Source: a virus
Direction: 5' to 3' (one strand)
Length of the DNA stretch: 36,391 bases
Virus record (IMG/VR): IMGVR_UViG_3300045117_000143
Span: 1-36,391 of that record
Under the pieces are notes generated by a model. The model saw only the letters and a list, made by a program, of their open reading frames with translations. It did no database searches and was not told where the DNA came from. The position numbers and the translations under genes are program-made. Shown here one piece after another: positions 4,292-32,974 of this stretch (positions within the stretch are counted from its first letter, which is position 1; each line of letters begins with the position of its first letter).

Positions 4292-4462
4292 TAGTCGGTT
4301 TTTGGCGTCAGTAAAAACCCCTTGCACTCGGACGATGCAAGGGTTACGGTAAGGGTAGCAGCAAGCCTTACCGCATGATGCAGTAAGGATGCTGCAAGGG
4401 TGGCGGTGAGGTTGCAGCAAGGTTGCCGCAAGCCTTACCGCCGGGGAAAGCGGAGGGCGACA
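4292..4462 (+). repeat. Leader with hairpin cluster and GCAAGG-type repeats
   Basis: This intergenic stretch holds three consecutive perfect hairpins. GGTTTTT/AAAAACC is at 4297-4303 and 4313-4319. CCCTTGCA/TGCAAGGG is at 4319-4326 and 4336-4343. CGGTAAGG/CCTTACCG is at 4347-4354 and 4366-4373. From 4336 to 4440 the sequence is built of degenerate GCAAGG/GGTTGCNGCAAGG units, with a second CCTTACCG at 4433-4440 that could pair alternatively. Read on the minus strand, the second hairpin is followed by TTTTT and would look like a Rho-independent terminator, although no minus-strand gene needs one here. On the plus strand it may form a structured leader of the ATPase gene. Confidence 0.55.
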
Positions 4463-6544
4463 ATGGGCGAGCAATTCATCATCATCACTTTGCGGGGGGT
4501 CAAAGGCGTCACGGGCACCGCGGTCCTCGGGCCGCGGACGCTGCTCACGGGGGCCGTGGGGGTGGGCAAGTCGGCCTACCTCTTCGGCCTCCAACTCGTG
4601 CTCTTCGGCCGCGTCCCGAGCATCGGGATTGCCGAGGGCGGCAAGCAGGACGTGGGGCGGTTGCGCCTCTACATGCGGGACGGCGGGAGCGTCACCGTGG
4701 GCTTTCCCGACGGGCGCAGTTTCGGCTACGCCTTGGAGTACACCGAGAAAAGCGCCCGCCTCAAGGCCCGCGGCCAGGCGGAACCGGACGGCCCGGTCGT
4801 CGAGGGGGCCGAGGCCGAGGCCCTGATTGCGGACTGGCGGCAGTCCGCAATCATGTGCTCCTGGTCCGCATTTCAGCGGGCCAACGACCGCCAGCGGCGG
4901 GACATGATCCTCGACTACTTCCCCGGCCTCGATTCCGAGGACGCGGCCCGGTGGGCGCGGTGCGAGGCATATGCGGCGCTGGCCGACCTCGTGAACGAGT
5001 GCTCGGTGGGCACGCCCCGGCACACCGCGGACGCGGAGCGCACCTATCGGCTCGGCGCGGTGCGGGCCGTGGGAAGCGACGCGCACGGCATCATCGAGGC
5101 CCTGGAGGGCAAGGCCCTTGGTTCGCTGGCCGCCCGCCTGGACCGGCTGCACACCGAGAGCAAGAGGACGGAGAACGAGCGCAAGGCGCGCAAGAAGGCG
5201 GTTGAGGGGTTGTCCTTGATCGAGGACCAGCGCACGGTGACACAGCAGGCCGGGGAGCTGCCCGTGCTCGAAGAACGCCTGCGGAACATGGACACGGAGA
5301 TCGCCGCGCTCGACGCCCAGGCCCAGGCGCACGAGCGGGGCGCGCGGAACAGGACCGCGGCCGAGGGGCGGTTGACGCGGGCGAAGCAGGCCGCGGAACG
5401 GCTGCGGGTCGAGGTTGGCCGCCTGGGGAGCGTGGAGGCGTGCACGGCTGCGGCCAAGCAAGCCGCCGACGCGGAAGCCGCGGTCAAGGCCGCCCGGCCC
5501 GCCCTGGAACTGGACACGTCGCCGCTCGTGACCGCGCTGGCCGACGCGGAGGCGCAGTTGGCCCGTGTCATGGAAGCGGGGCGACAGCAGAAGATCATTT
5601 ACCTGGAGGGCAAGGCCGGGACGTGCCCCCTCACCAAGGGGCCGTGCTCCGGGGATTTGTCCGCGGCCGTGGCGACGGCCAAGGACCAGCTCGCCGTGCT
5701 CGCCCAGGCCAAGCGCACGCACGAGGCCGCGGTCGCCAGCATCAACGCCGAGCTGGCGGCCCTCGCGGCCAAGGCGAAGCTGCACAAGACGGACATGGAG
5801 CGGTGGCGGGACGCCATGCAGGCCGCCATCGACGCCACGGCCGCGGCCCGGCAACGCCTCACCCGTGCGCCCCAGGCCGCGGCGGAACTGGCCGACGCGG
5901 AAGCCGCGGCCAAGGCCGCACAGCAGGCATTCGACGCGCTCACCGTGAGCGCCGCCGCGGACCCCGCGCACCGGACGGCCCTGGAGGAGCAGCGGGGCCG
6001 GCTGACGACGCAAATCAAGGTGGTGCGGGACGCCAAGGCCCGGCTCGACGTGGTGGCCGGGGCCGGCGTGGACGCGGCCGAATACGAGGCGAAGTTGTGG
6101 AAAGCCGCCTGGCAGGGGGCGGTGGCGGGGCGCAACGCCTACCTCCAGAGCCGCACGGCCAAGACGGCGAGCGCCATGCAACGGGCGGTCAAGGCTCTCG
6201 GATTGGGGGAAGAGTTCGTGATTGACCTCGGAGCCGACATGCGACTCGGGGTCATGCGGGACGGCGTGTATGTGGACGTGGAGGCCCTGAGCGGCGGGCA
6301 GTCCGTCATGTTCGGCGCGGCCCTGCTCGCGGCCCTGCCCGTGCCCAAGGAAGGGGAGCGGCGGATCATCATCGTGGAGGGGGTTGAAGCCGGGCCGGAA
6401 TTGCCCGTGCTGCTCGACTACCTGCGAACCGTGCCCGCGGCGTACATCGCCCTCGCCAGCGCGACCGCGCCGGAAGCCGCGGAAGGGTGGCTCCGGGTGC
6501 GGGTGCCAGAGGACACGGACGACAGCCAGGAGGCCGCGGCGTGA
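4463..6544 (+). CDS. Rad50/SbcC-like coiled-coil ATPase
   Basis: A 693-residue ABC-type ATPase of the SMC/Rad50/SbcC group. ATG 4463 follows CGGAGGGCGACA; the upstream in-frame start at 4400 lies inside the repeat leader. Walker A is GAVGVGKS (residues 30-37). Long alanine/glutamate/lysine-rich heptad regions at about 215-345 and 350-560 predict a split coiled coil. Between them TCPLTKGPC (CX6C, near 390) sits where Rad50 has a zinc-hook CXXC. The signature LSGGQ is at 609-613. The Walker B position reads IIIVEG (635-640), so the usual Asp is Val while the catalytic Glu is kept. Such proteins usually act with an Mre11/SbcD nuclease, which is not visible here; instead a helicase gene overlaps the stop (GTGA). 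A role in DNA end processing or recombination is inferred. Confidence 0.8.
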   Translation: MGEQFIIITLRGVKGVTGTAVLGPRTLLTGAVGVGKSAYLFGLQLVLFGRVPSIGIAEGGKQDVGRLRLYMRDGGSVTVGFPDGRSFGYALEYTEKSARLKARGQAEPDGPVVEGAEAEALIADWRQSAIMCSWSAFQRANDRQRRDMILDYFPGLDSEDAARWARCEAYAALADLVNECSVGTPRHTADAERTYRLGAVRAVGSDAHGIIEALEGKALGSLAARLDRLHTESKRTENERKARKKAVEGLSLIEDQRTVTQQAGELPVLEERLRNMDTEIAALDAQAQAHERGARNRTAAEGRLTRAKQAAERLRVEVGRLGSVEACTAAAKQAADAEAAVKAARPALELDTSPLVTALADAEAQLARVMEAGRQQKIIYLEGKAGTCPLTKGPCSGDLSAAVATAKDQLAVLAQAKRTHEAAVASINAELAALAAKAKLHKTDMERWRDAMQAAIDATAAARQRLTRAPQAAAELADAEAAAKAAQQAFDALTVSAAADPAHRTALEEQRGRLTTQIKVVRDAKARLDVVAGAGVDAAEYEAKLWKAAWQGAVAGRNAYLQSRTAKTASAMQRAVKALGLGEEFVIDLGADMRLGVMRDGVYVDVEALSGGQSVMFGAALLAALPVPKEGERRIIIVEGVEAGPELPVLLDYLRTVPAAYIALASATAPEAAEGWLRVRVPEDTDDSQEAAA

Positions 6545-7998
6545 GGTACACCCTCGAACAGCGGGCCATCCTCGACGGCCGGGAGTCGGCCAAGCGGGTC
6601 ATTGCCGCGGCCGGTTCCGGCAAGACAGCGGTGCTCGTCGGGCAAGCCGCCCGATGGAGCGACGACCCGGAAACGACGCTTGCGATCACCTTCACGCGCC
6701 GGGCCGGGGCCGCCTTGCGTGACAAACTGGAGGCCGCGGGCGTGGCCTCGCCCTGGATGGTGGGCACGGTGCATAGCTACTGCTATCGCAGCCTCGCCCG
6801 GTGGGGCCATCGCTACACCCTCGTTGATGCGGCTGAGTTGGTGGTGATTGCCGAATACATCATGGGCCGGGCCGGGGTGCGCTCGCAATCCACCCCGGAG
6901 CGCCTGGCCGCCATGCTAACGCACGATTTGAAGGCCCCCCGCCCCTCGGACGGGGAGCGGATGATTCTGCGCCTCGTGTTGGCGTTCCTGGCCGAGCAGG
7001 GGTTGTGCTACGTCGGGGATCTTCCGCGGCGTTGGCTCGACCTGGCCGGGCGGGAACCCCGCTTCCTCGACCTCTGCCGGGCGCAAGCTCGCACGGTGCT
7101 ATGGGACGAGTATCAGGACACGAACGCGGAGGACGCGGCGCTCCTCGCCGCCATAGCTCCCCGCCGTCGCTTCCTCATCGGTGATCCGTCGCAGTCCATC
7201 TACGGCTTCCGGGGGGCGTCGCCCGAATTCCTGTTGCGGGACACGGGCCGCTTGTTCCCCCTCACCCTCAACTGGCGTTCGGGTACGGGCATCGTGAGCT
7301 ATTGCAACGCGTTCCGCCTGCACTACATGGCCGGGGCGGCGCGGCAAGTGCCGGGCCGGGTGCGGATCATCGGCCTGGACGAGGACAGTCACACGAGCGA
7401 GGAACTGGCCCGGCTCGCCGGGGAAGGGCCGCTCGTGGTCCTCTGCCGGACGAACCGGGAGGTTGCCCGGCTGGCGTTGGCGCTGGCCCCGCTGCGCCCC
7501 CTGGTTGTGTCGTCGCAGACGGATCGGTTTGCGGGGCCGCGCTGGCGGGCCGTGTATTGGCTGTGCACCTGGCTCATCGCCCCGGAAAAGTCCTGGCTCC
7601 GGGCCAAGGTGGACCAACTCACGGGCGACGCCGGGGCGGTGCAGGTTCGCGGTTTCACGACCGCGGCGGAAGTGGCTTCCTGGCTCGGCATGGTGCCCGG
7701 CCCCGACGACGCCGCGCTCCTCGACTGCACACTGGAGGAGTTCGCGGCGTGGTACATGGCCCGTGACCTGCAAGACCAGCTCCCGGACGGTGAGCCGCCC
7801 GGCCTCGTGCTGATGACCGCGCACGCCTCGAAGGGCTTGGAGTGGCCAGCGGTGGCAGTCGTCGCGGATCGGATGCCCCTGAAAGGCCAGGACGCCACGC
7901 AGGAGCGGAATCTCTATTACGTCGCCTGTAGTCGGGCGATTGACTCCCTGGCCGTCGTCGGGCACGGCGGGGGCTTCATGGGCGAGATTGGAGGGTAG
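6541..7998 (+). CDS. UvrD/Rep-family superfamily 1 DNA helicase
   Basis: A 485-residue helicase with a GTG start at 6541 that overlaps the previous stop (GTGA) and has AGGAGG eight bases upstream. All SF1 motifs are present in order: Q-motif-like LEQRAIL, motif I AAAGSGKT (22-29), Ia ITFTRRAGAALRDKL, motif II DEYQD (189-193), motif III FLIGDPSQSIYGFRG, motif IV LNWRSG, motif V VLMTAHASKGLEW and motif VI NLYYVACSRA. It is shorter than bacterial UvrD (about 720 residues), with reduced 1B/2B insertions. It should unwind DNA 3'-5' using ATP. Coupling to the Rad50-like ATPase suggests a joint recombination or replication function. Family assignment is secure; direction of unwinding is family knowledge. 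Confidence 0.93.
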   Translation: MRYTLEQRAILDGRESAKRVIAAAGSGKTAVLVGQAARWSDDPETTLAITFTRRAGAALRDKLEAAGVASPWMVGTVHSYCYRSLARWGHRYTLVDAAELVVIAEYIMGRAGVRSQSTPERLAAMLTHDLKAPRPSDGERMILRLVLAFLAEQGLCYVGDLPRRWLDLAGREPRFLDLCRAQARTVLWDEYQDTNAEDAALLAAIAPRRRFLIGDPSQSIYGFRGASPEFLLRDTGRLFPLTLNWRSGTGIVSYCNAFRLHYMAGAARQVPGRVRIIGLDEDSHTSEELARLAGEGPLVVLCRTNREVARLALALAPLRPLVVSSQTDRFAGPRWRAVYWLCTWLIAPEKSWLRAKVDQLTGDAGAVQVRGFTTAAEVASWLGMVPGPDDAALLDCTLEEFAAWYMARDLQDQLPDGEPPGLVLMTAHASKGLEWPAVAVVADRMPLKGQDATQERNLYYVACSRAIDSLAVVGHGGGFMGEIGG

Positions 7999-28581: not shown

Positions 28582-29487
28582 CTACTGCTGTTGCTCCCCG
28601 GCCGCGGCGTACAGGTCCGGGTGCTCTCGGCACACCTTGGACCACGCCGCGCCCTTGGTGAGGTTCTTGTCCGCGTCCATCGCGGCCTTCACCATCGCTT
28701 CGAGCTTGGGCAGCGGGGCCGCGCCGTCATCCGTCGCGCCGCTCCCGATCTCGACGAACAGGGCCGACTTCTCCAGCGCCGCGGACACGCCCTTGAACAG
28801 CTCGCGCAGGATGGCGAATTCGGGCTTGCCGTCTGCGGCCTTCAGGAGCGCGAACAGTCGCTCGCCGCCCGGCATGGACGGAGCCTCGGCCTTGATCATG
28901 TTCTTGATCTCCGCGTCTCGTGCGTCCTGCTTCAGCTTGGCGGCCTCGGCCTCGGCCTTGACTCGCTGCGTCTCCTGCTCGCACGCGGCCTTGAACAGCG
29001 CCAGCACCGCGGGGCGGGACGCCTCGGCCACGTCGGTCAGGACCGGCTCGCCCTTGTCGTCCACGACCAGGCCGTGCTTCCGCATCGGTTCCTGGACGGG
29101 AGCCGGGGCGGGGAGTTCCACGCCCGCCAGGGCCAGGAGGCCCCCGACCGCTTCCTTGGGCACGCCCGCGGCCTTCAACAGCCGCAGCCCGGCGACGACC
29201 TGCCCGACCTTGCCCGCGTCCTCGACCTTGGCGGCCTTGAGGAGCGGCAGGGCCGCGGCCTCGATCCCGGCCTCGCCCGCGCCGAGCAGGAAATCCACGA
29301 CTCCAAACTGCGCTTCGCTCACGTTGATCTGCTTTTCCGGCATGTCTGCCCCCTTCGCGGCTTTCAGCATGGCGATCTTGCGCCCGTTCTGCGGGGTGAA
29401 CGGCCACACGACGATGGACAGTTCGTCCGCTTGCGCCCCGATGATTGTCTGCGTGCTGGTTGCCGCGCCACTCATGCCCATAAGCAT
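28582..29487 (-). CDS. Putative capsid scaffold protein
   Basis: About 301 residues from ATG 29487 (after GGAAGGTGCCCGT). A second strong candidate is ATG 29343 after GAAGGGGGCAGAC, which would give 253 residues. The chain is alanine/lysine/glutamate-rich and largely helical, with a coiled coil near 175-200 (QETQRVKAEAEAAKLKQDAR). It has a typical helical C-terminus (AWSKVCREHPDLYAAAGEQQQ) such as many scaffold and protease-scaffold proteins carry. It lies between the protease block and the decoration/capsid genes, the usual scaffold position. A TAAAAT box 26 bases upstream of ATG 29487 may restart transcription after the plus-strand cassette. Confidence 0.65.
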   Translation of the reverse strand: MLMGMSGAATSTQTIIGAQADELSIVVWPFTPQNGRKIAMLKAAKGADMPEKQINVSEAQFGVVDFLLGAGEAGIEAAALPLLKAAKVEDAGKVGQVVAGLRLLKAAGVPKEAVGGLLALAGVELPAPAPVQEPMRKHGLVVDDKGEPVLTDVAEASRPAVLALFKAACEQETQRVKAEAEAAKLKQDARDAEIKNMIKAEAPSMPGGERLFALLKAADGKPEFAILRELFKGVSAALEKSALFVEIGSGATDDGAAPLPKLEAMVKAAMDADKNLTKGAAWSKVCREHPDLYAAAGEQQQ

Positions 29488-29618: not shown

Positions 29619-29647
29619 TTGACGTGTTGCCGGGTCGGTGGTAGTCT
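29619..29647 (+). promoter_or_regulatory. Promoter candidate for the methyltransferase-nuclease cassette
   Basis: TTGACG (29619-29624), a 17-base spacer and TAGTCT (29642-29647) give a near-consensus -35 and optimal spacing with a weaker -10. The start of transcription would be near 29654, leaving a leader of about 87 bases before ATG 29741. Its orientation is opposite to the surrounding late operon. Confidence 0.5.
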
Positions 29648-29740
29648 TTCCACGTCCGGCAGATCACCGGATGAAGGCCAGGCTTCCGGGCGGCCCGTCC
29701 TCGACCGGGCTGCCCTCCCTGGCGCGTCGAGGAGGCACGC

Positions 29741-30820
29741 ATGACACAGCACCCGCAAGTTGATCCGCAGTTCCAAGCGCAGATCCCGCCGCTCACGCCG
29801 GAAGAGTTCGCCGGCCTGGAGGAGCGCCTATTGGCCGAGGGCTGCCGGGATGCCCTGGTTGCGTGGGCGGAAACCGGCATCCTACTTGACGGCCACAACC
29901 GCCTTGCCTTGTGCCGCAAGCACGGCCTCACTTACCGCATCCGGGGCCTCAGCCTGCCCGACCGGGCCGCGGCCGAGGACTGGATCGACCGCAACCAGCT
30001 CGCCCGGCGCAACCTCTCCCCCGATGCCGCCAGCCTCATCCGCGGCCGAATCTACAACCGGACGAAGCAGGGGCATGGGGGAGCAAGGTATCAAAGTGAC
30101 ACCTTGAACCGCACCCGTGAGGGCGTGGCCGCGCAAACCGGAGTCTCCCCGGCCACGATTGCCCGCGACGGCCGCTTTGCCGAGGCCGTGGACGCGCTCC
30201 GGGGGGCGGTGCCCGACATTGACCGACGCGTGCAGGCCGGCGACATTCCGAGCCGGCAAGCCGTCCTCGACGCGGCCGACGAACCCGAGCGGGCCGAGGA
30301 GATTCTCGCCCGCCCTCACGTCGCGCACAACAGCGGCAACAACGAATGGTACACGCCGGCTGAGTACATCGAGGCGGCCCGATCCTGCATGGGCGGCATC
30401 GACCTCGACCCGGCTTCCTGCGAGACGGCTAACGCGACGGTGCAGTCCACGCACTACTACACCGCGGAGCAGGACGGGCGCAAGTTGCCGTGGGCGGGGC
30501 GCGTGTGGCTCAATCCTCCCTACGCCCAACCGCTGATTGGGGAGTTCGTTGATTGCCTGCTCTGTGCGCGGGTGTCCGGGGCCGTGAAACAAGCCTGCGT
30601 GCTCACGAACAATGCCACCGAGACGGCTTGGGGCGTCGCCCTCCTGGCCCATTGCTCCGCGGTCTGCTTCCTGCGTGGCCGCGTGCGCTTCGATGGGCCG
30701 AGCGGGAAGGGCACGGGCGCACCGTTGCAGGGACAAATGATCGTGTACTTCGGCGGCCACGTCGGAGCCTTCTATCGCCACTTCGCCCCGCTTGGCAACG
30801 TCCTAGTTCCGTCGCCATGA
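29741..30820 (+). CDS. ParB-like domain fused to Dam-type DNA N6-adenine methyltransferase
   Basis: A 359-residue protein, ATG 29741 after GAGGAGGCACGC. Residues 20-95 form a ParB/sulfiredoxin-like N-domain with ILLDGHNRLALC (48-58) and NQLARRNLSPDAASLIRG. Residues 125-150 look like an HTH (AAQTGVSPATIARDGRF). Residues 198-345 match phage Dam-type methyltransferases: NNEWYTPAEYIEAAR, IDLDPAS, WAGRVWLNPPYAQP with the catalytic NPPY (258-261), and LTNNATETAWG. It should transfer methyl groups from S-adenosylmethionine to adenine N6; the recognition site is unknown. It lies on the plus strand inside a minus-strand late operon and is coupled to a nuclease-like gene by ATGA. Confidence 0.88.
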   Translation: MTQHPQVDPQFQAQIPPLTPEEFAGLEERLLAEGCRDALVAWAETGILLDGHNRLALCRKHGLTYRIRGLSLPDRAAAEDWIDRNQLARRNLSPDAASLIRGRIYNRTKQGHGGARYQSDTLNRTREGVAAQTGVSPATIARDGRFAEAVDALRGAVPDIDRRVQAGDIPSRQAVLDAADEPERAEEILARPHVAHNSGNNEWYTPAEYIEAARSCMGGIDLDPASCETANATVQSTHYYTAEQDGRKLPWAGRVWLNPPYAQPLIGEFVDCLLCARVSGAVKQACVLTNNATETAWGVALLAHCSAVCFLRGRVRFDGPSGKGTGAPLQGQMIVYFGGHVGAFYRHFAPLGNVLVPSP

Positions 30821-31380
30821 CTTCCTTTGCTCACGATCTGCAACGCGGGCGGGCGGGCGAGTCGGCCATTGCCGCCTATCTGCGACGGCGCGGCTTTGCC
30901 ATCCTGCCGGCCTACGAAATCATCATGGAGCGCAAGGCCCCGGCGCTTTTCCCTGCGTTGCCCGCCGCGCCGCTCATCGCCCCGGATATGTTGGCGTGGC
31001 GGGACGGCAACGCGCTCTGGATCGAGGCCAAGCACAAGGAAGCCTTTGCCTGGCACCGCAATTCGGGCACCTGGGTCACCGGGATTGATCTGCGCGTGTA
31101 CGCCGACTATCAGCGCGTGCAGGCGTGCTCGCCGTGGCCCGTGTGGTTGCTCTTTCTCCACCGCGGCGGCCAGGCCAAGGACAGCCCGCCCAACAGCCCG
31201 GCCGGACTATTCGGGAACCGACTCGACATGCTCACGCAATGCGAGCACCACCGCTCGGATAGGTGGGGCAGTAGCGGCATGGTGTACTGGGCGCACGCCA
31301 GCTTGACGCTCATTGCGTCGCTGGCCGCAGTTCTCGCCGCCTCTACCGCCGCGGGAACACGATGCACGGCTCGGCCGTGA
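30817..31380 (+). CDS. PD-(D/E)XK-like nuclease
   Basis: A 187-residue protein starting in an ATGA overlap at 30817; the frame is open further upstream but that is inside the methyltransferase. The nuclease core is GRAGESAIAAYLRRRGFAIL (E15 on the first helix), then APDMLAW (D57), then LWIEAKHK (E70-x-K72), followed by QRVQACSPWPVWLLFLH. This is the PD-(D/E)XK order used by resolvases, VRR-NUC and restriction enzymes. The substrate is not known. Pairing with a methyltransferase raises the possibility of a restriction-like or genome-protection pair. The C-terminal 60 residues, overlapping the opposite gene, are less conserved-looking. Confidence 0.75.
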   Translation: MTSFAHDLQRGRAGESAIAAYLRRRGFAILPAYEIIMERKAPALFPALPAAPLIAPDMLAWRDGNALWIEAKHKEAFAWHRNSGTWVTGIDLRVYADYQRVQACSPWPVWLLFLHRGGQAKDSPPNSPAGLFGNRLDMLTQCEHHRSDRWGSSGMVYWAHASLTLIASLAAVLAASTAAGTRCTARP

Positions 31381-31867
31381 TCGCGGCCAGGCGGGTCAAG
31401 GCGTCCCGCTTCGACACGACGCGGATACCCTTGGTCGTGATGACGACGACCTGCTCATCGCCGGTGCGCTCGTAGTGCTTCAGGGCCTCGGCCACGGACT
31501 CAAACCGGGCCAGGCCAGCCACGTTGCCGAGTGCGGCCCGGAGCCATACGATCCGGTCCACGTCCTCATCGGACCAGCGGCACTCCTGGCCCTGCACGCC
31601 GGGGTCGGCAATGCTCGGCGTGATGGCCCCGGATTTCTTCCAGGTGCTCAGGGTCGGGCCGGACACGCCGGTCAACTCGATCACCTTCCACGTCGGCAGG
31701 CCGGGCGCGTCGTCCGGTTCCACCGACGCGAGCGGCGCGGCGTCGGCCGCGATGTCGGCCAGCACTTCCGCCGCGGGCTTGGCTGCTTCCTCCGGGGCCA
31801 GCGGCACGCTTGCCACGACCGGGGCCGTGTACTCCTGCTTGTCGTCCTTCTTTCCTCGCTTCGCCAT
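31343..31867 (-). CDS. MerR-like winged-HTH protein in the late operon
   Basis: A 174-residue protein, ATG 31867 after AGGAGGGTAATCAC. The first 55 residues are a low-complexity Ala/Pro/Asp-rich arm. Residues 55-112 carry PTWKVIELTGVSGPTLSTWKKSGAITPS, then CRWSDEDVDRIVWLRAAL, the MerR-type pattern of HTH, wing and following helix. The final part has EALKHYERTGDEQVVVITTKGIRVVSKRDAL. It could be a late-gene regulator or a DNA-binding packaging factor. Its last 38 bases overlap the plus-strand nuclease gene end. Confidence 0.7.
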   Translation of the reverse strand: MAKRGKKDDKQEYTAPVVASVPLAPEEAAKPAAEVLADIAADAAPLASVEPDDAPGLPTWKVIELTGVSGPTLSTWKKSGAITPSIADPGVQGQECRWSDEDVDRIVWLRAALGNVAGLARFESVAEALKHYERTGDEQVVVITTKGIRVVSKRDALTRLAAITAEPCIVFPRR

Positions 31868-31871
31868 GTGA

Positions 31872-32936
31872 TTACCCTCCTATCGTGAGCTTGGAGCCGC
31901 CCGGACTGATCCCAGTGCCGAGCGTGCTGATTATCTGCCAGGCCGCCGAGTCGGGGAAGTGGACGCCCACGCACCACGCGCCGGCCTTCACCATCTCTTC
32001 CCCGAGCTTGCCGTCGCCGTCCTGAATCCACGACTGCACCACCTGCGCGGCCAGCGGCGTTTCGCCGTGATTGATGCGGAACGACTTGCCCGCGGTCTTC
32101 TGCATGTAGTCGATTGCCATGCCCTCAATCGCTTCGGGCGTCCACACGTCGTTTTCCCCATCCTTGACGCCCGGCTCGGCCACGATGAAATGTGCGATCT
32201 GCTTGGCCGCGTTGGCCTTGCACAGTCGGCCCGTGAACGCCAGCGGGGGGGCGTCGGCCTTCTTCAACTCGGCCAGCATCCCCCGCGCCTTCTCCTGCAA
32301 CGCCTTCTTCTTGTCGTCGTCCAGGCCCGGCGCGGTGCTCTGCGGGATGCGGGCAATGGCGTTCGTCAGGTGCGGGCGGTCCAGCTTGCCCGCGGCATCC
32401 TTGATCGGAAAGTGCCGCTTGCTCCGGGGCGTGGTCTTGCCGTCCGCATCCTTCTCGCCGCCCGCTTCGATGTAGAGGAAGGCCGAGTCGGGCAGGTCGT
32501 TGACCTTGGCCGCGGTCCATTCGGCCTTTTCCATCGGCACGATGAGCGGCATCACCGGGGCCGCGAACAGGGCCAGTCCGCGCTTGTCGGCCTCGGCAAC
32601 GAGGGCCTTGGCTGCCTCTGCGAAGCGGGCATCGCCGCGTTGCTCCGTCGTCGCCGCCCACTCGTAGCGGTCGCAGAGCCAGAGCCACGCGCCCAAGACC
32701 TCGTAGTCGGACAGGCGGGTCAAGTCGCCCGTCGCCAGCGCCATCAGCGGGAGATTCAGGTCGAGGCCGTACATGAGCGCCCGGCGCATGAGCCAGCCGT
32801 ACTCCTCGTCGCCCATGACCTCCCGCGCCCGCTCCAACAGTTCGGCCACGCGGTCGGGGCCTTGCAGGTTGGCGTCGAGCAGCGCCACGACCATCTTTCC
32901 GTCAGCCTTCGTCATCGTCACCCGTCGTATTCTCAT
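31872..32936 (-). CDS. XkdF-like prohead protease with extra N-terminal domains
   Basis: A 354-residue protein; ATG 32936 has AGGAGG seven bases upstream. The C-terminal third (about 250-354) has the XkdF/S78-type layout. AHFIVAEPGVKDGENDVWTP is followed by IEGMAIDYMQKTAGKSFRINHGE (catalytic His candidate), VVQSWIQDGDG, GAWCVGVHFPDSAAWQII and GISPGGSK (catalytic Ser candidate). Residues 155-235 (LPDSAFLYIEAGG, KRHFPIKDAAGKLDRPHLTNAIARIPQS) resemble the DUF6582-type domain. The N-terminal 140 residues are unassigned. It likely processes capsid or scaffold. Fusion of these segments has been seen by me in other phages but should be checked. Confidence 0.75.
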   Translation of the reverse strand: MRIRRVTMTKADGKMVVALLDANLQGPDRVAELLERAREVMGDEEYGWLMRRALMYGLDLNLPLMALATGDLTRLSDYEVLGAWLWLCDRYEWAATTEQRGDARFAEAAKALVAEADKRGLALFAAPVMPLIVPMEKAEWTAAKVNDLPDSAFLYIEAGGEKDADGKTTPRSKRHFPIKDAAGKLDRPHLTNAIARIPQSTAPGLDDDKKKALQEKARGMLAELKKADAPPLAFTGRLCKANAAKQIAHFIVAEPGVKDGENDVWTPEAIEGMAIDYMQKTAGKSFRINHGETPLAAQVVQSWIQDGDGKLGEEMVKAGAWCVGVHFPDSAAWQIISTLGTGISPGGSKLTIGG

Positions 32937-32947
32937 CGTCTCGCCTC

Positions 32948-32974
32948 CTAGACCGGAGTCGTCACGCACCTTCA
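32948..32974 (-). other. In-frame TGA in a conserved C-terminal motif; possible read-through extension
   Basis: The minor head protein stops with TGA (32974-32972) directly after PPAHPD. Reading on gives TGA-R-C-V-T-T-P-V and then TAG (32950-32948). Family members usually read PPxHPxCRC, so the TGA sits precisely at the expected first cysteine. The second stop TAG is placed just before the AGGAGG of the next gene, like a normal gene end. Confidence 0.5.

Follow-up and report, generated by a model that had tools for sequence, protein, structure and literature searches.

Two overlapping genes, carried on the strand opposite to the late genes of an uncultured phage, are best explained as a self-contained, virus-borne restriction-modification-like cassette, a reading to which we assign a probability of roughly 0.6 and in which we infer both activities, their common target site and the victim DNA. 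The first gene (ORF1) codes for a ParB-like/helix-turn-helix (HTH) domain fused to a Dam-type DNA adenine methyltransferase and the second (ORF2) for a predicted nuclease of the PD-(D/E)XK superfamily. Methyltransferase and nuclease genes of these kinds are linked far beyond chance.

Genomic context of the gene pair

The window, i.e., the whole stretch of DNA analyzed, is the full IMG/VR virus record IMGVR_UViG_3300045117_000143 of 36,391 bases. On its plus strand, ORF1 (29741-30820; 359 aa) and ORF2 (30817-31380; 187 aa) have the ATGA at 30817-30820 in common, with the start of ORF2 falling within the stop codon of ORF1; an earlier note on this DNA had placed and coupled the two genes in just this way. 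The sequence also shows a Shine-Dalgarno AGGAGG (29730-29735, plus strand) 5 nt 5' of the ORF1 ATG. The further claim that the pair has its own promoter fares less well: the candidate TTGACG-17-TAGTCT (29619-29647, plus strand) is weak, agreeing with the consensus at 8 of 12 bases, and is absent from the output of a consensus promoter scan. An inverted repeat with 8-nt arms upstream of ORF1 was considered as an operator and dropped, as by our estimate such a repeat is at about the chance level in 267 bases.

The head and tail genes identified around the cassette (portal, head morphogenesis, predicted head protease, scaffold, major head protein, tail sheath, tape measure and baseplate) all lie on the minus strand, which bears out the description of an opposite-strand insertion in a late operon. 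Because these structural genes include those for the tail sheath, tape measure and baseplate, the virus is by gene content a contractile-tailed phage. The cassette is immediately flanked by two late-region genes of unknown function on the minus strand, one of 298 aa at 28585-29478 and one of 174 aa at 31343-31867, the latter being convergent with ORF2, whose 3' end reaches 38 nt into it. The next minus-strand gene (31875-32969) has 'DNA methyltransferase' (phrog_1530) as its best PHROG label and head maturation protease and protease as its remaining matches; in all likelihood the best label is misnamed. Remote from the cassette, plus-strand genes for an SbcC-like protein and a DNA helicase (4400-7995) likely constitute a replication module.

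Searches for relatives of the phage returned ten with the major head protein as the probe and none with the head-morphogenesis protein. The two nearest relatives covering the region (L188 and L189, with head proteins 44% and 39% identical to that of the window) retain the portal, head morphogenesis and head protein genes in the window's order, and neither of their 17-kb stretches contains an ORF1 or ORF2 homologue. This absence would fit a mobile insert and supports the earlier designation of the pair as a moron, though relatives at such identity are distant.

The ParB-like domain and the Dam methyltransferase

The N-terminal region of ORF1 (29741-30280, plus strand; phrog_21315) contains a DGHNR motif and a helix-turn-helix. 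A profile of 14 homologous N-termini (profile A4) matches the PDB chains 5k5d/5k5a, labeled 'ParB domain protein nuclease', with E 7e-7, and this profile evidence points to membership in the ParB N-terminal superfamily; the ORF1 protein (P0001) as a single query stays below Pfam ParB_N. The methyltransferase domain (30338-30748, plus strand) matches PF05869 (E 1.8e-11) and phrog_111 (E 1.7e-32). The Pfam match spans residues 200-336 with 44.4 bits against a gathering cutoff of 28.1, and the NPPY motif is located at residues 258-261 (30512-30523), a combination by which ORF1 is a predicted member of the Dam family. Thus, both halves of the fusion proposed from the single sequence are recovered by profile searches. 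A match of ORF1 to the PADLOC oMTase model is weak (E 3.4e-5). Among ORF1 homologues the N-terminus varies, with a ParB part like that of the window in 41 of 134.

Fusions of this kind are already known from phages: the accessible parts of the respective papers describe ParB-methyltransferase fusions in BCE_0392 of a Bacillus cereus prophage (PMC3459991; PMC5512222, section 15), in the methyltransferase of a Wolbachia prophage (PMC3089641) and in 36 enzymes of Paracoccus prophages (PMC6536676).

As regards base composition, GATC occurs in the window 212 times against an expectation of 206, so that it is neither avoided nor enriched. Six-base palindromes are strongly under-represented (mean z of -6.7 for 24 palindromes vs 0.13 for 1246 other hexamers, the palindrome z being inflated ~1.4 because both strands were counted), a scarcity suggesting that restriction has weighed heavily on the lineage of the host.

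The ORF2 family

In an alignment of 72 members of the ORF2 family, with five fragments of <120 residues left out, E15, D57, E70 and K72 (codons within 30859-31032, plus strand) are each conserved in all 72 and P56, which precedes D57, in 71. The E15/D57/E70-x-K72 constellation that had been read off the single sequence is therefore real. The family is absent from the libraries searched: ORF2 as a single protein has no match in Pfam, PHROGs or NCBIfam at E up to 1 or in PADLOC at E up to 0.01. Likewise, tblastn of ORF2 found no relative among 50,697 phage or 72,556 plasmid records, and that of another family member (L024) found none among the phage records. Relatives were recovered from uncultured viral contigs, with 3 found by a scan with ORF2 alone and 72 loci by a scan with a profile of 11 sequences, and from bacterial genome contigs, with at least 3 loci, a lower bound because the genome scan relies on short exact patterns. 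The dN/dS of the nuclease among five close relatives (ten pairs) is 0.12-0.25, indicating that it is maintained as a protein.

Linkage of the methyltransferase and nuclease genes

The collected loci, the window included, provide 66 distinct nucleases with a length of 100 aa or more; one (L095) lies at a contig edge, leaving 65 for scoring. A DNA methyltransferase gene is directly upstream in 61 of these 65, some of which were drawn from a methyltransferase scan and hence show the pair by selection; among the distinct loci initially retrieved through their nuclease (L042-L107), it is directly upstream in 46 of the 50 with upstream sequence. The 61 upstream genes comprise 59 of the Dam type (55 of 58 scanned upstream ORFs plus L018-L021), one N6_N4_Mtase and one MT-A70. 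The last two loci, at which the ORF2 family stands behind a CcrM-like N6_N4_Mtase (L071, 4244-6549) or an MT-A70 enzyme (L075, 4982-6603) and not behind Dam, place one nuclease family behind three methyltransferase classes. As for the four exceptions, another protein is upstream in L098, a cytosine-5 methyltransferase (PF00145) is near the nuclease and not adjacent to it in L073 and L078, and no methyltransferase was found near the nuclease in L080.

Spacing was measured wherever a long ORF lies upstream (63 pairs, L098 included), taking the start codon closest to the profile start as the start: 53 overlap, 16 of them by exactly 4 nt, 9 are separated by 1-11 nt and that of L073 by 250 nt. The surroundings of the pair contain no conserved third gene, the commonest neighbor family being present in 11 of 60 loci. 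A VRR-NUC-like gene, recognized by eye, occurs near the pair in four loci, apart from the paired nuclease (e.g., L088, 2454-2939).

The complementary scan from the METHYLTRANSFERASE side used a profile built from the methyltransferases of nuclease-bearing loci; 506 candidate Dam loci were counted, of which the best 80 yielded 78 distinct Dam tails, 77 of them with downstream sequence. Directly downstream of Dam, 63 of these 77 have a predicted nuclease, belonging to the ORF2 family in 21 and to a second small family in 42, a fraction that is not valid for all phage Dam because the set represents the Dam sequence space nearest the window. The other 14 include L147, with a PDDEXK_11 protein (PF20472, E 4e-35), and L158, L168, L174 and L176, whose downstream proteins share an ExKxD..TGN..E-like pattern by eye and have no Pfam match; in the wider set, the partner in L037 is an HNH endonuclease.

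The second family (alignment A3) displays a D..E-x-K core, with D32, D34, E48 and Q60 invariant among the first 11 sequences aligned. Its profile and that of the ORF2 family do not detect one another, and in a profile search of the loci collected up to then it was seen only next to Dam. The motif lysine is kept in 34 of 46 members and replaced by Ser or Thr in 11, with a gap in one; L007, L008, L010, L011 and L015 form a subgroup with this replacement, whose members may therefore lack activity or rely on a different residue. Used as a scan query, one member of the family retrieved no locus but its own. A match in Tenacibaculum phage pT24 covers 44% of the query and has no methyltransferase annotated beside it. 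ParB-only matches in gut phages (Dulem virus 33, MT836946) were set aside as ParB-like genes in which no methyltransferase motif was seen.

These counts bear on the simplest alternative, namely that an orphan protective methyltransferase and a nuclease of independent function are unrelated neighbors. It is in keeping with the 13 sampled cultured-phage Dam loci, none of which has either nuclease family; nevertheless, the overlap in 53 of 63 pairs and the presence of a partner at 63 of 77 Dam loci make it untenable for this Dam group, and we consider it highly improbable. The expectation that the two genes would be found together elsewhere is thus borne out from both directions.

Exchange of partners and other carriers

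Parsimony on a quickly built tree of 134 Dam domains gives 34 changes of partner label against a shuffled mean of 54 (all labels), and 21 of the 34 are switches from one main nuclease family to the other. Partner labels thus cluster on the tree and yet have switched repeatedly. As the tree is poorly supported (15 of 131 inner branches starred), the exact number of switches is unsure; the starred branches require the label of the ORF2 family to have changed 3 times or more.

The pair also extends beyond typical phage contigs. In Acidithiobacillus ferrianus (L108, 863-8537), a ParB-Dam and nuclease pair adjoins genes for a TrwC relaxase, a TrwB coupling protein and a topoisomerase, and is by this gene content probably part of a conjugative element. 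A comparable arrangement is seen in a cultivated archaeal virus, Methanoculleus virus Blf4 (MZ171369.1; L198, 2047-3823), in which a ParB-like domain fused to an N6_N4_Mtase (QXM18669.1) is followed, with an 11-nt overlap, by a 189-aa protein (QXM18670.1). The latter has no Pfam match and contains a PQD...VERK motif, by which we read it, by eye, as a putative nuclease; Blf4 is thus a possible laboratory model for the paired arrangement. The Blf4 paper, in its accessible part, mentions methyltransferases and not a methyltransferase-nuclease pair (PMC8540584).

Predicted folds of the nucleases

The AlphaFold2 model of ORF2 (pLDDT 84.2, pTM 0.81) has Hjc as its best Foldseek match (E 1.9e-5), and Hjc-type Holliday junction resolvases occupy the top 11 places in Foldseek and the top 7 in VIA-align. 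VIA-align superimposes the model on Hjc with Z 11.7 and rmsd 2.3 over 116 residues, followed by lower scores for a SPARDA nuclease chain (Z 9.6) and the restriction enzyme NhoI (Z 9.1). The 187-residue protein is thus predicted to have the PD-(D/E)XK fold postulated for it, with the alpha-beta core of this superfamily in the model and its catalytic core in the aligned sequences. At the sequence level, a single-sequence match of ORF2 to ST1444 (2eo0) is weak (E 0.83), and profile A1 has no Hjc match among PDB sequences; its weak matches there to CoA-binding proteins were taken as chance. The model of the second family (pLDDT 78.5) likewise has Hjc as the top Foldseek match (E 8e-3); with VIA-align, Hjc is intermixed with pyrophosphatases at Z ~7, because of which this model alone is not decisive.

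The structural matches raise the question of whether ORF2 might be a viral Hjc-type resolvase of Holliday junctions (branched DNA) serving recombination or packaging, and found beside a methyltransferase by virtue of a common DNA-metabolism operon. Besides the uniformity of the top matches and the nearest Foldseek match of the second family, the order and spacing of the acidic core of ORF2, which we take to be identical to those of Hjc, speak for this. Against it, there is no need for a general resolvase to follow a DNA methyltransferase at 61 of 65 loci, the same slot is also filled by other types of nuclease such as HNH, four pairs have a separate VRR-NUC-like gene nearby, and one pair adjoins conjugation genes. 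On balance we regard a resolvase role as rather unlikely.

A proposed restriction-modification-like function

The restriction-modification-like reading is favored by features that restriction-modification cassettes display: the nuclease gene lies directly behind the methyltransferase gene with translational overlap, different nuclease families are exchanged behind one Dam group, one nuclease family stands behind three methyltransferase classes, and the pair occurs on viruses and a conjugative element. Under this reading, the Dam-type methyltransferase, aimed or regulated by the ParB/HTH domain, would mark the virus's own DNA, and the co-translated nuclease would cut unmarked DNA, be it the host chromosome, a rival phage or a plasmid. 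The ATGA overlap would tie synthesis of the nuclease to translation of the protective methyltransferase. Type II systems likewise have linked genes for a methyltransferase and a nuclease.

Several observations sit less easily with it. The closest folds are those of Holliday junction resolvases and not of restriction enzymes; the nuclease, with its 187 aa, shows no evident domain for target recognition; it is odd, if a single fixed site is recognized, that one family of nucleases should follow methyltransferases of three classes; 4 of 65 nucleases have no directly adjacent methyltransferase; and the catalytic lysine is missing in 11 of 46 members of the second family. Of the compact restriction-modification pair suggested in the earlier note, the gene linkage and the predicted PD-(D/E)XK fold thus hold; the restriction-modification-like role is the best reading, and one that we infer.

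A methylation-directed nicking enzyme, akin to MutH or the P1 pac system, would provide a different link between the two genes, reading hemimethylated or unmethylated Dam sites and thereby timing packaging, repair or replication of the virus's DNA. There is precedent in phage P1, in which pac cleavage is under Dam control, and the cassette of the window does lie among head genes. The accessible parts of the literature add that BCE_0392 shows nicking-associated concatenation, for which its authors suggest a role in phage replication or packaging (PMC3459991), and that the Paracoccus prophage ParB-methyltransferase genes lie upstream of terminase genes (PMC6536676). This alternative seems quite improbable to us, given that neighbor clustering, with clusters judged by eye, finds no packaging gene recurring beside the pair, that one pair is in a conjugative region, and that other methyltransferase classes with different expected sites replace Dam.

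Within the restriction-modification-like reading, we tentatively raise the possibility, against which the odds still lie, of an unrecognized class of restriction system of mobile elements, in which the methyltransferase, of the phage Dam type or another and often ParB-bearing, provides target recognition and licenses a small, exchangeable nuclease without a recognition domain. Recognition supplied by the methyltransferase would explain both why Dam, N6_N4 and MT-A70 enzymes can be followed by one and the same nuclease family and why several nuclease families follow one Dam group.

Comparison with known systems

Phage adenine methyltransferases are generally regarded as orphan and protective. 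In the Dam group nearest the window, 63 of 77 loci have a predicted downstream nuclease from families that the searched libraries do not name; if active, these would amount to a reservoir of new small nucleases with which viruses and conjugative elements could destroy host or rival DNA that lacks the mark. Already described are the ParB-Dam fusion, the methyltransferase family and the nuclease fold. A search of the mostly open-access literature found no description of the methyltransferase-nuclease pairing; as far as this search shows, the ORF2 nuclease family is new, and so is the finding that in uncultured viruses it is tightly and exchangeably paired with methyltransferases of the Dam type.

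The catalytic domain of ORF1 is the same as that of the orphan phage Dam (PF05869; PADLOC oMTase), but the Dam of the window is paired with a nuclease, whereas neither partner family is present at any of the 13 Dam loci sampled from cultured phages. The prophage ParB-methyltransferase fusions (BCE_0392, Wolbachia and Paracoccus) share the combination of a ParB-like N-terminus with a DNA methyltransferase, but the accessible parts of their descriptions report no overlapping PD-(D/E)XK gene. Blf4 (QXM18669.1/QXM18670.1) resembles the window in that its ParB-like-methyltransferase fusion overlaps a small second gene; it differs from the window in the class of its methyltransferase, an N6_N4_Mtase. 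Archaeal Hjc is the closest solved fold to the ORF2 model (Z 11.7), but ORF2 is 16% identical to it, has an extra conserved W79/W86-TGI-D loop and C-terminal GLFG/GMVYW segments, and is linked to a methyltransferase.

Among restriction systems proper, virus-borne Type II restriction-modification systems exist in Chlorella viruses, and Sau42I of phage phi42 is reportedly a BcgI-like restriction-modification system. On bacteriophages, Type II restriction enzymes are rare according to the accessible part of Pingoud et al. 2014 (PMC4081073). The pair described here departs from Type II systems in that the ORF2 family is in none of the searched family libraries and activity, a site and cognate protection are postulated for the pair. 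It resembles them in the adjacency of the methyltransferase and nuclease genes, the PD-(D/E)XK core, the mobility of the cassette and the exchange of partners.
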